From Peronospora farinosa (lineage: Eukaryota; Oomycota; Peronosporomycetes; Peronosporales; Peronosporaceae), in NCBI GenBank assembly GCA_947646735.1, contig CANTFK010000781.1, forward strand, positions 1 to 64,000: a DNA stretch of 64,000 bases, read 5' to 3'. Shown piece by piece: positions 20,952-28,221 of this stretch; position 1 is the stretch's first letter; each line of letters opens with the position of its first letter. The notes beneath the pieces were generated by a model. It searched no databases. It saw only the letters and a list, made by a program, of their open reading frames with translations, and had not been told where the DNA came from. Position numbers and translations under genes: made by a program.

Positions 20952-21878
20952 CTATGTCATCACCACACCTTCAAAGAGCATCACACGACTCTTGTTTAGC
21001 TCCTTGCACACTCTTTTCATGCTCTTCTCACCAATCATCGTTACATCGCTAATCTCCTGAATAGAGCGCTTTGCATTCGTGTAAGCTGCCACGAGGTAAA
21101 TCACAGAAGCCGCTACAGCAACAGGAGGCTGTCCACTAGACAATTCCAGACTGTCTGCCTTCTTTGCCACAGCATGTGCAATCATCTGTGTCTTATTTGG
21201 TAAACCAAGTCTCGAGCAAAAGCGTTGAACGTATTCCTCCGTCGTTGCTTGTTTAACCTCGAGATTCAAACGGCGCTGTAAAGTCATAAAGGACTTGCCA
21301 ATACGTCGCTTCGGGATGCCCGACGCGTCCTCAAATTCCTTGAACGACCGAGCATTCCCAGCCTTCCTGCACGCAATAAACAGCACTGCAACAGCCATAC
21401 TCTCTCGTTCAGGTCCTCGCATATTAATGCCTTGCTTCTCTGCTTCTGCGTATACGTCCAATGCAATCTCTACAATCTTTTTCGGTAACGATAAAAAGTC
21501 TGCAACTTCTTGTATACGCGTCATTGTACGCTGCATTCTCTTGACCTTGGCACTATCACCTGAAATATTAGGCCTCTTGTGTTGATGTCCCGACGAATTG
21601 TCCGTCCCCCCGCCGCTTTTCTTGGGGTCGACTAAATACGTCGATAAAGAGACACTATCGAGCCGCACGTCCGCGACGTCACCGACCCTGGATTTTGCAG
21701 CGGGGTCACCACCCCGATCATCATTAGCAAACGTTCGCCATTCGGGAGAATCATCTATTATGCGCTCACCGAGGATCATACCGCAGCTGCGACATACAAC
21801 GTCACCTGCACTAAAGTCCGTCACGACGTCCGCGCTTCCACACTCACGACAGTGGTCCGGCACGCACTCACCTCCCAT
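20952..21878 (-). CDS. GTF2B: General transcription factor TFIIB
   Basis: 308 residues, single exon. Zinc ribbon with C10/C13 and C29/C32 (CRECG...CRSCG), B-reader/linker containing ERIIDDSPEWRTF, then two cyclin-fold repeats (FLSLPKKIVEIALDVYAEAE, ACRKAGNARSFKEFEDASGI; then CSRLGLPNKTQMIAHAVAKK, VAASVIYLVAAYTNAKRSIQ). Length and domain order match canonical TFIIB rather than BRF1. It bridges TBP-promoter DNA and RNA polymerase II. Gene tail ends soon after the second cyclin fold, as usual. Confidence 0.96.
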   Translation of the reverse strand: MGGECVPDHCRECGSADVVTDFSAGDVVCRSCGMILGERIIDDSPEWRTFANDDRGGDPAAKSRVGDVADVRLDSVSLSTYLVDPKKSGGGTDNSSGHQHKRPNISGDSAKVKRMQRTMTRIQEVADFLSLPKKIVEIALDVYAEAEKQGINMRGPERESMAVAVLFIACRKAGNARSFKEFEDASGIPKRRIGKSFMTLQRRLNLEVKQATTEEYVQRFCSRLGLPNKTQMIAHAVAKKADSLELSSGQPPVAVAASVIYLVAAYTNAKRSIQEISDVTMIGEKSMKRVCKELNKSRVMLFEGVVMT

Positions 21879-22181: not shown

Positions 22182-22460
22182 TCAAAACTTGAACCCCTTC
22201 TTGACAAGATCAGCTTTTGCTTCAATTACGTGACAGTCGAGCTCTTTGGCAGCTTCAGGGAAGTCTTGCACCGCCATAACCGACAGCACAATCACCACCA
22301 ACGAGTACACACCAAAGGATCCAATCGCGTACACGGGAAGTCCCTTCACTACATGAAGAACAATCTGATTTTGTACATTATCAGACACATACCACACAAG
22401 TAGCAGCCACAGTGTGACCAGCACAACGAAGGCACGGAGCCACTTCTGATACTTGAGCAT
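22182..22460 (-). CDS. DPM3: Dolichol-phosphate mannosyltransferase subunit 3
   Basis: 92 residues, single exon, the normal size for DPM3. Two N-terminal membrane helices (RAFVVLVTLWLLLVWYVSD and LPVYAIGSFGVYSLVVIVLS) followed by the family signature DFPEAAKELDCHVIEAKADL and VKKGFKF. It anchors the catalytic DPM1 subunit to the ER membrane for Dol-P-Man synthesis, the mannose donor for N-glycans, GPI anchors and O-mannose. Divergent from the transposase-derived gene at 22612. Confidence 0.94.
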   Translation of the reverse strand: MLKYQKWLRAFVVLVTLWLLLVWYVSDNVQNQIVLHVVKGLPVYAIGSFGVYSLVVIVLSVMAVQDFPEAAKELDCHVIEAKADLVKKGFKF

Positions 22461-22611
22461 ATTGACTAAATTTATTCTATTTGATTGAATGAAAATTCAT
22501 ATTTTCTTACCAATTTAACGACAATGATTGGATAGAAAGATAAATACAGAGTCCTGATTGGTACAAAATTGACTATGACGTTCATTTTTCAATATTGCTT
22601 TATTCTTCACC
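22461..22611. promoter_or_regulatory. Divergent promoter with CCAAT boxes and oomycete Inr-like element
   Basis: 151 bp between opposed ATGs. ATTGG (CCAAT complement) at 22527-22531 and 22557-22561, then GTTCATTTTTCAATATT at 22580-22596, a good match to the oomycete Inr/FPR consensus (GCTCATTYYNCAWTTT). It lies 16 bp before the ATG of the plus-strand gene. Confidence 0.55.
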
Positions 22612-24030
22612 ATGAAGAGCTCCTCGTTCTTACCAGCACCTCATCTTGAAGATGCTACTAACGCAATGGAAGCGATTGGTATCGAAGAAACAGTACAAGT
22701 TCGACGTAAGCCCAATATGACGGACAATGAACGACTTCTTATGGCCGATTTCCTGCTTAAACATAGCCAGGGTGAATCTCGATTACCCCGAGCAATCATT
22801 GCTGCAGCTGCAGATAAATTTCAAGTGCATCGCAATACGGTTTCACGTATCTGGAACCTAATGAAAGTGTCACTAGATGTTGGTGCATCCACTGATGTTG
22901 TACTCAAGCAAGTGTTGTCTAGAAAGCGTGGTAATTGTGGTCGCAAGAAGAAAGACTATTCAGCTGCACTGGAACGAGTCAAGCAGCTGCCTTTGAACCA
23001 GCGTGGCTCATTGCGAGCTTTATCTTCAGCTTTAGGTGTTCCACGTACGACACTCTTTCGTCTGCTTCGTAATGAGGGAACGAATAATAGCATCAGTGCG
23101 ACTGATCATCAAGAAACGAGCTTGGAACTCAAGCCAACGATTGCCAACTCTATCAAAGCAGCACTGTCGGATAAGAATAAGAAGGAACGACTGCAGTTTT
23201 GCTGCAGTAAAATGCAGCCAAATGGGGTGTTTGATAACATGTTCAACATGGTGCATATTAATACCAAATGGTGCTCGTTACCGGGCAATCGCGACGCGAA
23301 GAAGAAGAAAATCATGTTCTTAATCGCTGTCGCTCGACCGCAATGGGATGCAGAGAAGCAGCAACAATTTGATGGAAAACTTGGTGTATGGCCGTTTGTG
23401 GTGGCTGAACCACCCTTACCACTTGGAACGTATACTGAGGCCAATGCGCTCAGTGTAGATCCATCACGAATCAGTCGTGTGTTTCGTGTGCTAGAGACAA
23501 TCACGAAGAGGGAGATTCAAGCAATGATTACAACCTCTGTCATCCCGGCGATCAAGCTAAAGTTGCCAAGCTCTTTGCGCCGCGTACCGGTGTTGATCCA
23601 GATGGATAATCAGCAAGTGCGACTGACAGCTGACGACCCGATTGTAGCAGAACATGGCAGCACTGGTGGCTGGAACATTCGAGTGCAATATCAACCAGCT
23701 TACAGCCCTGAGCTGGTGGTACTAAATCATGGCTTCTTAAAGAGCATATATCCTGAAATGATTCCACCACAACTTCGTTGCCCGCAACTCCCTCTTGTTG
23801 AAGAACTCATTGCTGGAGTAGAGCGCACGTTTGCTGCATTACCCAAACGACAGATTAATGACGCCTTTTTGACGTTGCAGAAGACAATGGAGTGTATAAT
23901 GCTAGCTGGTGGTTCCAATGACTTTGAGTCACAAGAAGGTGCGACCAAGAAGAGTTTGCAGAATGACGGCAGTCTGCCCGTGAGTGTATTATGCAAACGC
24001 GAAGCTTTGTTGTGTGTCAATCCATTTTGA
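22612..24030 (+). CDS. Tc1/mariner-type transposase-derived protein, copy 1 (catalytic residues altered)
   Basis: 472 residues, one exon, no stops. The N-terminal third is a double helix-turn-helix DNA-binding region (MADFLLKHSQ... RNTVSRIWNLMK and RGSLRALSSALGVPRTTLFR), followed by a DDE domain with recognisable motifs: VHINTKW (about residues 214-220), VLIQMDNQQ, and YSPELVVLNHGFLKSI. In active relatives the first motif is typically DEKW; here the Asp is Asn217. The second Asp is kept (D332), the third is Asn372. No catalysis is therefore expected. I see no terminal inverted repeats abutting it. A host-like promoter precedes it. Likely a domesticated or decayed-but-intact transposase acting, if at all, as a DNA-binding protein. 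Confidence 0.8.
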   Translation: MKSSSFLPAPHLEDATNAMEAIGIEETVQVRRKPNMTDNERLLMADFLLKHSQGESRLPRAIIAAAADKFQVHRNTVSRIWNLMKVSLDVGASTDVVLKQVLSRKRGNCGRKKKDYSAALERVKQLPLNQRGSLRALSSALGVPRTTLFRLLRNEGTNNSISATDHQETSLELKPTIANSIKAALSDKNKKERLQFCCSKMQPNGVFDNMFNMVHINTKWCSLPGNRDAKKKKIMFLIAVARPQWDAEKQQQFDGKLGVWPFVVAEPPLPLGTYTEANALSVDPSRISRVFRVLETITKREIQAMITTSVIPAIKLKLPSSLRRVPVLIQMDNQQVRLTADDPIVAEHGSTGGWNIRVQYQPAYSPELVVLNHGFLKSIYPEMIPPQLRCPQLPLVEELIAGVERTFAALPKRQINDAFLTLQKTMECIMLAGGSNDFESQEGATKKSLQNDGSLPVSVLCKREALLCVNPF

Positions 24031-24288
24031 AAGGCCTTTGTCAGAAGAATATCTACACTCTTGTCCTGTTACAAGAGCTCATTACTACCGATTGAATGCA
24101 ATAAATGCATTGAAAGTAGTTATTAGTCTTCAGTTTGGCCAGGTATAATACATGATTGACAAGGACATGATGTTGAAGTTAGAGCGTGTGCACCACACAA
24201 AAGAGACAGAATACAATGACCTTTATTAGCCAATAAGAATGTTCAAGTGAGATTGCGTTCAGCTCAAACTGTCTCGTCCACGAAAAAA

Positions 24289-25713
24289 ATGAGCATGAAC
24301 GCACATCCGTCGAGTCTTGTTCCATCTTCAGAGCCGATTCCAGAGGTTCTTGTCGCTGTGGCAGATGATCCAATCATTGAAGAAGATTCGCTAGCTTTTT
24401 CTGTCTCTTCTGATAAAAAAACGAGCGCGTGGAAGGAACGAGGGAGCAAGAATTTAACGTATGAAGAACGTCGTTCGATGCTCGATTTTCTGTTAAAGCG
24501 ACGCGTTGACGGCACGTCAAAGCTCGTGCGTCACGCTGTCACAGATGCTGCAACTAAGTTCTGTGTGGATCGTCGCACTGTCTCAAGACTATGGAAACGA
24601 GCGTTACAAAGTCTTGAAAATGGAGACGAAGTGTGTGATGTGGCATCACGAAAAATTGGACGTCGTGGTCGTCGGAAACGTGATTGGTCCGTGGAATTGG
24701 AGCGTGTAAAGGAGATTCCATTGGCTCAACGAGGATCGATTCGTGCGCTGGCTACGGCTGTTGGAATTCCCAAGACAACACTCTATGAGTTGTTGAAAGA
24801 GGACGGAGGTCCTACTATTAACTCGATCAAGCCGTCACTTACAGACAAGAATAAGCTCGAACGACTTCGATATTGTGCTAATAAAGTGCGATCCAATGGG
24901 CTTTTTGATGATATGTACAATGTTGTGCATATTAATATGAAGTGGTTTTCACTTCCTAAAGACAAGAAGACAAAGGTGATGTTCATGGCTGCAGTGGCGA
25001 GGCCACAATGGGATCCGCAGAAGACAGAGTATTTTGATGGCAAGATTGGCACGTGGCCATTTGTACGGGAAGAATTACAGGTTGTCGATGCAGATATGAA
25101 GTTTCCACAGGAAAGACTAGAGCAGACATTCGTTGCGTTAGAGACAGTGACGAAAGATGATGTCCAACGGATGATCACGGAATTGATTATCCCGGCTATT
25201 CGGCTGAGAATGCCGGTGCACCTTATGCATGGCCCTATTTATATCCAGCAAGATAGCGCCAAGATTCGATGCTCTAGTGATACGATGTTTGCTGAAGAAG
25301 GACGAAAGGAAGGCTGGAATATTCAAATGCAAAACCTGCCGCCGTATTCCCCGGACTTCGCCGTCATGGATAGCACCCTTTTCAAGCTGATCCAGGCTGC
25401 AATGAAAACATTTCCTCCTTCTTCCCATGCGGCAACGGTGTCTGGTCTCACGGTATTGATGTCTAATGTAGAGCAAGGGTTTGTTTTGCTGACGAAAGAT
25501 CAAATTAACGACGCGTTTCTTTCGTTACAAAAGGCTATGGAATGTACGATGCGAGTTCAAGGCTCCAATACGTACGAGCTCGGCCCCACCAGCAAGGAAC
25601 AGCTCCAACTGGAGGGTAGTCTACCTGTGAGCATATTGTGCGACCCTGATGCAATGTTAGCGTGTAGAGCCGTGCTCGATCACGTAACCGAGGAAACCCT
25701 CGAAACAATGTAG
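24289..25713 (+). CDS. Tc1/mariner-type transposase-derived protein, copy 2 (first catalytic Asp lost)
   Basis: 474 residues from ATG 24289, one exon, 258 bp after copy 1 and in the same direction. Same architecture: HTH blocks (MLDFLLKRRVDGTSKLVRHA, RRTVSRLWKR, RGSIRALATAVGIPKTTLYE), VHINMKW with Asn216 in place of the first Asp, YIQQDSAKI with D322 kept, and YSPDFAVMDSTLF with D361 kept. Shared C-terminal blocks QINDAF.SLQKAMEC and GSLPVSILC align with copy 1, so the two are ancient tandem paralogues, moderately similar only. Retention of full-length frames alongside the same Asp-to-Asn change argues for selected non-catalytic function. Confidence 0.8.
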   Translation: MSMNAHPSSLVPSSEPIPEVLVAVADDPIIEEDSLAFSVSSDKKTSAWKERGSKNLTYEERRSMLDFLLKRRVDGTSKLVRHAVTDAATKFCVDRRTVSRLWKRALQSLENGDEVCDVASRKIGRRGRRKRDWSVELERVKEIPLAQRGSIRALATAVGIPKTTLYELLKEDGGPTINSIKPSLTDKNKLERLRYCANKVRSNGLFDDMYNVVHINMKWFSLPKDKKTKVMFMAAVARPQWDPQKTEYFDGKIGTWPFVREELQVVDADMKFPQERLEQTFVALETVTKDDVQRMITELIIPAIRLRMPVHLMHGPIYIQQDSAKIRCSSDTMFAEEGRKEGWNIQMQNLPPYSPDFAVMDSTLFKLIQAAMKTFPPSSHAATVSGLTVLMSNVEQGFVLLTKDQINDAFLSLQKAMECTMRVQGSNTYELGPTSKEQLQLEGSLPVSILCDPDAMLACRAVLDHVTEETLETM

Positions 25714-25902: not shown

Positions 25903-28221
25903 TTAAGCAACAAAAGGCGCACCAAGACTCCATGCAATGAAAGCAAACACCTCGGACGTCTCCTCGATGATCTTGGTGGTAGGTTTACCAGCTCCATGGC
26001 CGGACTTCGTGTCAATTCGGATGAGCAAGGGGTTCGTCTGCATTTCCGAGCTACCGAGCTGGTGCTGCAGCTCCGCAATAAGCTTGTATGAATGCAGGGG
26101 CACAACTCGGTCGTCATGATCACCGGTAGTCAAAAGCACTGACGGAAAACCTCCACGCTCTGCAAGCTTTTGCATGATCGGGCTATCAGCATGAGGAACG
26201 TTGTGAACCGGCGAGTACTGCCGAATATAGTCAAAGTCGTCTGCCACGTCCGGATCACCGTATTCCGTGCGCCACGCGTGCCCAATGGTAAACTTGTGGA
26301 AACGCAGCATGTCCATAACACCCACTGCACCAACCATACAACGATAGAGATCGGGGCGCTGGTTGCTGGCAGCCGCCACCAGCAGACCACCGTTAGAGCC
26401 GCCATGGATAGCAATCTTTTCTGAATTCGTGTAGCCTTCCTCAATAAGGTATTCGGCAGCACTGTGGAAATCATCGAACACATTCTGCTTCTTGTGCAGC
26501 ATACCATCTTGGTGCCATTGCTCGCCGTACTCGCCACCACCGCGTAGGTTAGGCAGCGCCAGCATGCCATTAAAGTGCTGGACGAAAACAAGTCGCGAGA
26601 CGCTAAAAGCCGGTGTCAGGGAGATGTTGAAGCCACCGTACCCGTAGAGGTACACTGGCAATTCACCATTCTTTGGCGCGTTCTTACGTTTCACAAGAAA
26701 CATCGGAATCTTCGTACCATCCTTGGATGAGTAAAACACTTGCTTTGCCTCAAACTGACTCGGGTCAAAGCCCTTTACTTTCGTCTCACGAAACAGTTCA
26801 GCATCAGGCGCCATTCCTGAAGTTGTTCCTGTCTTCGAAAGATCGATGCGGAAGATAGACCCCGGGTACAGGAACGAGATGAAGTGGTAAAACAGCTCCG
26901 ACTCTGTGCGCTTGCTGGCGACTCCAACAGTGCCGATACTGGGCAACGGAATCTCGTACTGGAATACACCATCAAGGTTGTACACGTGCAATTCATTGTG
27001 CACGTCCTTAACAAGCTGCACGACGAGCAGGTTTGGCGCAGCAGGATGCACGCCTTCAATCACGATAGCATCCGGCTGTTCAGGAATTACCTCTTCCCAC
27101 ACAGGAACAGCATTACCGTCGCCCAACTTGGTACGTACGACACGTTCGCGAGGAGCATCAACATTAGTCTTGAAGTAATAGTAATCACCATCATTCAGAA
27201 TGTACGAGTACGCTGCATCCATATTATCGACAAGTTTCGTCACTGGAATCGTCGAGTCTTTTGGTCCTTTTAAAAAAGTCTCAAAGTCACTCAAATCTGC
27301 GACATGAAGCATATTGGCATTTTTGCATCCATCTTGCACGTACAAGAGCAACTTCTTGCCATCATCCGAGACCTCTGCACTAACATTAAACGTCGGTTCA
27401 CTTGGGTAGGCATACACTAGTTTATCCTGACTTTGTGAGGTATGCAATGTGTGGTACCACAGCTGATGATTCATATTCGACTCTGTCTCCGTTCCTCTCT
27501 TTAAATCTTCATCCTCATGACATTGCTCACTTTTCATGGTCTCTGGAGGTGGATATCGGGAGTAAAAAAAGCCCTGATCATCATGAGTCCATGCAATTGT
27601 CGAAAATTTCACCCACTCGATTGTATCCTCCAGCATCTGATTCTTATCATGTACAGCCATGATTTTAATTGTCTGCCAGTCTGATCCACCACGTGAGATC
27701 CCATGGGCAAAAAAGAGCCGTCCATCGTGCAGTTTTGACTCGGAAAAAGCACGACTAGAGAGCGCTGCGGTCCCGTCTGCAGCCAACAGGTTTGGATCCA
27801 ATAAAACACGTGGTTCACCTTGTAAATCATCCTGAATGTACAAAACACTTTGGTTCTGAAGACCATCATTCTTTGAAAAAACATATTTGTCTCCGTGCTT
27901 GTGAGGGGCCGAGAATTTTTCGTAATTAAAGAGTTCCGTCATCCGTGCTTTGGTTTCCGTCAAAAATGGAATTTCATGGTCAAAAATACGCTGGGTGACG
28001 TCATTTTGGTGCGTGATAAACTCACGCGTCTTGGACGAGTCGGGATCTTCAAGATATCGATACGGATCGACGACTTGGACGCCATGAAGATGCTCAACGA
28101 GGTGCTCGCGACGGACGGAAGGATACGTTAGTTTCTTGAGGGTTTGCATCATTGAAAAAGATCTTTTAGAAATGAAGGAAGGAATGTTTGAAGGAGGTTT
28201 ACAATTACAAAGATGAAACAT
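25903..28221 (-). CDS. PREP: Prolyl oligopeptidase, family S9A
   Basis: 772 residues, single exon. The core matches PREP from about residue 30 (VVDPYRYLEDPDSSKTREFI). Seven-bladed propeller region, then alpha/beta-hydrolase domain with nucleophile Ser in HGGSNGGLL, Asp in TTGDHDDRVVPLHSYK and His in KSGHGAGKPT. Cleaves short peptides after proline, usually cytosolic. The first ATG (28221) adds 23 residues (MFHLCNCKPP...KRSFS) before MMQTLKK at 28152; this could be a weak organelle-targeting extension or a leader, so the start is uncertain. Divergent from RBBP5 with only 144 bp between first ATGs. Confidence 0.95.
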   Translation of the reverse strand: MFHLCNCKPPSNIPSFISKRSFSMMQTLKKLTYPSVRREHLVEHLHGVQVVDPYRYLEDPDSSKTREFITHQNDVTQRIFDHEIPFLTETKARMTELFNYEKFSAPHKHGDKYVFSKNDGLQNQSVLYIQDDLQGEPRVLLDPNLLAADGTAALSSRAFSESKLHDGRLFFAHGISRGGSDWQTIKIMAVHDKNQMLEDTIEWVKFSTIAWTHDDQGFFYSRYPPPETMKSEQCHEDEDLKRGTETESNMNHQLWYHTLHTSQSQDKLVYAYPSEPTFNVSAEVSDDGKKLLLYVQDGCKNANMLHVADLSDFETFLKGPKDSTIPVTKLVDNMDAAYSYILNDGDYYYFKTNVDAPRERVVRTKLGDGNAVPVWEEVIPEQPDAIVIEGVHPAAPNLLVVQLVKDVHNELHVYNLDGVFQYEIPLPSIGTVGVASKRTESELFYHFISFLYPGSIFRIDLSKTGTTSGMAPDAELFRETKVKGFDPSQFEAKQVFYSSKDGTKIPMFLVKRKNAPKNGELPVYLYGYGGFNISLTPAFSVSRLVFVQHFNGMLALPNLRGGGEYGEQWHQDGMLHKKQNVFDDFHSAAEYLIEEGYTNSEKIAIHGGSNGGLLVAAASNQRPDLYRCMVGAVGVMDMLRFHKFTIGHAWRTEYGDPDVADDFDYIRQYSPVHNVPHADSPIMQKLAERGGFPSVLLTTGDHDDRVVPLHSYKLIAELQHQLGSSEMQTNPLLIRIDTKSGHGAGKPTTKIIEETSEVFAFIAWSLGAPFVA

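Follow-up and report, generated by a model that had tools for sequence, protein, structure and literature searches.

Two genes of transposase ancestry lie head to tail on the plus strand of a 64,000-nucleotide stretch of Peronospora farinosa DNA (contig CANTFK010000781.1, positions 1 to 64,000; hereafter the window). An earlier reading of this DNA, made from the letters alone (the sequence-only reading), had described them as a pair of intact transposase-derived genes, and both were confirmed at the positions listed below. In the list, HTH stands for helix-turn-helix and DDE for the aspartate-aspartate-glutamate type of catalytic fold.

22612-24030, plus strand: copy 1, 472 amino acids, with a DUF7769-type HTH, a second HTH and a degenerate Tc1/mariner DDE fold (N217, D332, N372)
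22717-22875, plus strand: first HTH (DUF7769) of copy 1, 29.2 bits in the genome search; helices at 38-89 in the model
23260-23262, plus strand: codon of Asn217, the first catalytic position of copy 1
23263-23313, plus strand: clamp-loop segment of copy 1, reduced to the 17 residues that separate Asn217 from Met235 (outgroup relatives have 35)
24289-25713, plus strand: copy 2, 474 amino acids from the ATG, with a layout like that of copy 1 by alignment (N216, D322, D361)
24454-24624, plus strand: first HTH (DUF7769) of copy 2, 36.9 bits in the genome search
24934-24936, plus strand: codon of Asn216, the first catalytic position of copy 2
24937-24978, plus strand: clamp-loop segment of copy 2, reduced to 14 residues (outgroup relatives have 35)

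Copy 1 contained no internal stop; its C-terminus (24010-24030, plus strand) ended approximately 6-13 residues short of those of the orthologues P0003 and P0017 and looks slightly shortened. The open frame of copy 2 ran from a GTG at 24247 to 25713 (488 amino acids). The ATG at 24289 is the likely start, because it gives 474 amino acids, exactly as many as in P0027, a Peronospora effusa protein with 98% identity to copy 2. Residue numbers of copy 2 are based on this ATG, with which the numbering of the sequence-only reading agrees; GTG-based numbers are 14 higher.

Two single-sequence protein searches returned 36 and 47 matches, representing 60 distinct proteins, and an alignment-based search returned 38 matches, of which three were new and partial (P0061-P0063); approximately 8,000 candidates were scored in each search. 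The 60 proteins and the two window genes were aligned in 62 rows (27 copy-1, 28 copy-2 and seven outgroup rows). The outgroup comprised P0035, P0036 and P0056-P0060, with P0058 coming from Aphanomyces astaci. The three partial proteins were excluded from the counts; one of them, P0061, carries the outgroup-type HIDEKWF.

The catalytic positions were N217, D332 and N372 in copy 1, with 39 residues separating the last two, and N216, D322 and D361 in copy 2, with 38 residues between the last two. The four residues named in the sequence-only reading (Asn217, Asn216, Asn372 and D361) were thus all correct in the alignment, and so was its claim that both copies had exchanged the first catalytic Asp for Asn. 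All 52 orthologue rows with a residue at this position (the two window genes and 50 proteins from the databases) had Asn, whereas Asp was found in 7/7 outgroup rows, a difference above chance. By clade, Asn was present in 25/27 copy-1 and 27/28 copy-2 rows, the remaining three rows having no residue there. The Glu that follows the first Asp was likewise lost in 52/52 covering rows, and the His of the DNAxPH motif was replaced by Arg in 54/54 rows, both copies included; P0023, a truncated gene model, was misaligned at this motif. The second Asp was retained in all 53 covering orthologue rows. The third position varied among the 25 covering copy-1 rows (N in 14, D in seven, S in two, T and H in one each), and in the 27 covering copy-2 rows it was D in 24, N in two and E in one. 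The outgroup relatives kept D-D-D in 7/7 rows. The spacing between the second and third positions was 39 residues in 6/7 outgroup rows (40 in the other), 39 in the covering copy-1 rows and 38 or 39 in the copy-2 rows. Neither copy therefore carried the intact D-D-D/E triad of an active Tc1/mariner transposase.

A second departure from active enzymes lay in the clamp loop, which connects the first two strands of the fold and in the Mos1 complex crosses the dimer interface (PMC4820933, PMC4027188). The segment from the first catalytic position to Met235 measured 35 residues in 7/7 outgroup rows, while 45 of the 52 covering orthologue rows had 14-17. Among the 25 covering copy-1 rows, 18 had 17 residues, one had 14, one had 23 (P0013) and five had 24-29 (P0019-P0022 and P0024); among the 27 covering copy-2 rows, 26 had 14 residues and one, a split gene model, had five. 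Structures were predicted for copy 1 (mean predicted local distance difference test score, pLDDT, 79.7) and for the outgroup protein P0056 (mean pLDDT 78.1). In the P0056 model a short strand and a long loop were found at this place, with low local confidence (44-64), and in the copy 1 model strand 213-222 passed to strand 233-241. The alignment and the models agree that the full clamp loop of an active Tc1/mariner transposase is missing.

The catalytic domain had the RNase H-type fold of Mos1, Sleeping Beauty and SETMAR. The helix of the third catalytic residue spanned 331-351 in the P0056 model, in contrast to only 373-377 in the copy 1 model. For the DNA-binding half, Pfam DUF7769 scored 32.5 bits in copy 2 and 25 bits in copy 1, below the cut-off of 27. 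Pfam matches to the second HTH were weak and all below the cut-off, and a second three-helix block was present in the predicted copy 1 structure. The two HTH blocks per copy claimed from the letters alone were thus recovered, the first as DUF7769 in both copies and the second through these weak matches and the copy 1 model.

The assembly to which the window belongs (46.85 Mb, 274 contigs) was searched at the DNA and protein levels. Besides the two copies, these searches returned one weaker place, on contig C265, and a marginal match on contig C177 (26% identity, E 0.03). Each gene was single-copy in this genome as searched, the only genome in which copy status was checked, and did not occur in several similar copies. 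DUF7769 was present in at least three places, namely the pair and C265 (the counts being lower bounds). The C265 gene (approximately 153505-154209, minus strand; locus L005, 1456-2160) encodes 234 amino acids, in which a Glu-rich stretch precedes DUF7769 (45.5 bits) and a weakly matching second HTH. Inspection of three downstream frames by eye revealed no catalytic domain, and of the 62 rows the outgroup protein P0036 (36%) matched it best by BLAST. A DDE_3 search found three other places in the genome with Tc1/mariner-like remains (L013, L014 and L015), each with an internal stop, unlike the intact pair.

Ten short inverted-repeat pairs were listed, one of which flanks copy 1 (20 nucleotides, 75%) and one copy 2 (12 nucleotides, 92%). 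In a search for terminal inverted repeats that used 30 shuffled versions of the flanks for comparison, the top-scoring 24-nucleotide pairs stayed within the shuffled range, with 17 matches for copy 1 (shuffled 15-18), 15 for copy 2 (14-17) and 15 for the whole pair (15-17). Any old terminal repeats could since have decayed. Many near-identical copies with terminal inverted repeats, which the sequence-only reading had named as the outcome contrary to its proposal, appeared neither in the genome search nor in the shuffled-flank comparison.

Intact orthologues of both genes were found in many species, as expected of a domesticated gene; the named sources were Phytophthora, Peronospora, Hyaloperonospora, Plasmopara, Bremia, Peronosclerospora and Nothophytophthora. 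Some orthologues are annotated as "Transposase". Ten named species had both genes: Peronospora belbahrii, Phytophthora ramorum, Phytophthora cinnamomi, Phytophthora lilii, Phytophthora fragariaefolia, Phytophthora nicotianae, Phytophthora kernoviae, Hyaloperonospora brassicae, Plasmopara halstedii and Nothophytophthora sp. Judged by equal contig sizes, the two paralogues probably share one contig in six of the ten. The other four differ, the matches from Phytophthora ramorum, Phytophthora nicotianae and Plasmopara halstedii coming from different assemblies or strains. Four further contigs (4,600, 4,996, 13,405 and 20,218 bases) carried one of each paralogue, and on the 4,600- and 4,996-base contigs the two genes must be close neighbours because these contigs are so short. 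The Phytophthora cinnamomi orthologues of the two copies, P0005 and P0050, share the name of an unrelated channel and are probably fused or misnamed gene models.

The surroundings of the pair in the window looked ordinary, with a TFIIB-like gene at 20952-21878, a DPM3 gene at 22188-22463 and a prolyl oligopeptidase gene at 25903-28221, all on the minus strand. The small DPM3 gene, between the TFIIB-like gene and copy 1, scored 79.9 bits.

In the main tree of 54 rows, 47 orthologue rows separated from the seven outgroup rows with a support of 100/100 and formed a copy-1 clade (22 rows) and a copy-2 clade (25 rows). A second tree, built from 23 selected rows and containing fewer long branches, agreed, with one change per label. 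The root was placed at the midpoint, and the shared Asn and Arg are consistent with it. Each clade included an outlying subgroup (P0019-P0022 and P0024 in the copy-1 clade; P0049, P0051, P0053 and P0054 in the copy-2 clade, where the fork lacks resolution). The two subgroups stem from the same organisms, because three cross-subgroup pairs sit on contigs of equal size. Both clades therefore hold members of one outlying lineage, implying that the duplication predates the split of that lineage from Peronosporaceae. Judged from the trees, the duplication is old.

Identity to the window proteins was lower for copy 1 than for copy 2 in 7/8 species, Phytophthora ramorum being the exception. Within-clade identity, calculated from 17 copy-1 and 21 copy-2 rows, was 78% and 86%, respectively, for the first HTH, 97% and 95% for the GRKKK linker, and 88% and 92% for the second HTH. 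The core of the fold near the Asn reached 83% and 82%, the C-terminal parts and the later fold were at 74-80%, and the variable linker fell to 35% and 50%. This pattern and the uninterrupted frames found in different genera suggest purifying selection acting on each half of the proteins.

We conclude, with a probability of roughly 85%, that the pair represents old host-adopted genes whose source was a single DD39D-type Tc1/mariner transposase, that one duplication gave rise to the two copies, and that Peronosporaceae have retained both as DNA-binding proteins that are probably non-catalytic. By parsimony, the Asp-to-Asn change would have preceded the duplication. Homology suggests that the paired HTH domains would bind a bipartite DNA site and that the RNase H fold may have been kept as a platform for contacts within a dimer or with partners, and not as a nuclease. 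The paralogues may act jointly, possibly by forming a heterodimer, and their targets would be chromosomal sites that have ceased to belong to a mobile element. That they work together is suggested because both have long been retained and lie on one contig in ten cases, as judged by equal contig sizes. Domestication into a DNA-binding family had been proposed from the letters alone, and the first part of that proposal is well supported by the single copy in the genome as searched, the lack of terminal repeats above the shuffled level, the many intact orthologues, the Asp-to-Asn change of every covering row and the shorter loop of most rows; the second part, as regulator or in genome defence, names a possible role. 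If the pair is indeed domesticated, transcription or chromatin control would be its likeliest role, at about an even chance, with regulation of host genes as a first guess. A more specific version, in which the two proteins form an obligate heterodimeric DNA-binding regulator and thereby a new class of oomycete transcription or chromatin factor, present in Peronosporaceae and at least one further lineage and accompanied in the window's genome by a third relative that is HTH-only, is put forward only tentatively.

Several observations weigh against this conclusion. The main tree was obtained after eight partial rows of the 62 (truncated or split gene models) had been dropped. Between copy 1 and copy 2, the nonsynonymous distance (dN, NG86) was 0.55 and the synonymous distance (dS) was undefined, the synonymous sites being saturated. 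The fold core was as conserved as the HTH blocks, so that the fold may still support an activity. The loop lengths of P0019-P0022 and P0024 (24-29) and of P0013 (23) make the shortening uneven; because of this it perhaps took more than one step, and two separate shortenings are possible. In Nothophytophthora the two genes lay on different contigs. Finally, Peronospora effusa copy 1 was not among the matches, although its copy 2 was; the listed names stand for one member per cluster, and this gene may be unannotated, clustered under another name or missing.

Pseudogenes were ruled out for the pair by the intact frames and conserved motifs. It is scarcely credible that the genes are recently dead transposon copies whose decay is still to come. 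Their transposase ancestry, the "Transposase" names of some orthologues and the short inverted repeats flanking each copy would fit such an origin; however, the best flanking repeats were no better than those of shuffled flanks, and the single copies, the intact orthologues in many species and the two deep paralogue clades all argue against it. Three lines of evidence (single copy as searched, repeats within the shuffled range and deep orthologues) ruled out an active transposon as well as a recently dead one. An activity surviving in a domesticated role, with D332 and, in copy 2, D361 still supporting nuclease or joining reactions, would be in line with the invariant second Asp, the Asp at the third position of most copy-2 rows (24/27) and the conserved fold core. 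In contrast, the first Asp and the following Glu were changed throughout, the His had become Arg, the clamp loop was mostly shortened and the third position drifted among copy-1 rows, and we consider such an activity very improbable.

The retained DNA-binding half also allows a role in genome defence, in which the catalytically dead pair would occupy the ends of cognate DD39D elements and block or poison their transposase. That a dead transposase relative could compete for element ends is an established idea, and Aphanomyces astaci (P0058) and other assemblies carry DUF7769 relatives whose triad is intact. In the window's genome, however, the three DUF7769 places found (a lower bound) were the pair and one HTH-only gene, with no cognate element among them. 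Since the genome search recovered no related element that could be repressed, such repression is less likely, and the shortening of the clamp loop would presumably make it harder for the pair to form mixed dimers with an active enzyme. This explanation is therefore regarded as unlikely, though less so than a surviving activity.

DNA-binding proteins have repeatedly arisen from domesticated transposases, with familiar examples mainly from animals, fungi, ciliates and plants. CENP-B and Abp1/Cbh1/Cbh2 resemble the pair in being domesticated DNA-binding proteins of the Tc1/mariner superfamily; however, they derive from pogo, a family other than that of the pair. SETMAR/Metnase is a domesticated Hsmar1 of anthropoid primates with the triad altered to DDN and a fusion to a SET domain, whereas the oomycete pair changes the first Asp and consists of stand-alone tandem genes found across many species. 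The DD39D family, called PlantMar, was reported from plants and a few oomycetes in PMC7325037. The pair resembles DD39D/PlantMar in its RNase H fold and in the 39-residue spacing of 6/7 outgroup rows and the covering copy-1 rows, the assignment being made by spacing; it differs in lacking the first Asp, in its mostly shorter clamp loop, in being single-copy and in having no convincing terminal repeats. The accessible, mostly non-subscription literature on domesticated mariner elements, DUF7769, DD39D/PlantMar and transposase-derived genes in oomycetes (including PMC7325037, PMC10351607 and PMC10799480) contained no description of the pair's family.

Domesticated Tc1/mariner transposases are thus already known as a kind. 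Within the DD39D group, the pair would represent a deeply conserved example from plant-pathogenic oomycetes, retained as two paralogues with a common loss of the first Asp, and the named Phytophthora orthologues give a handle for seeking its function.
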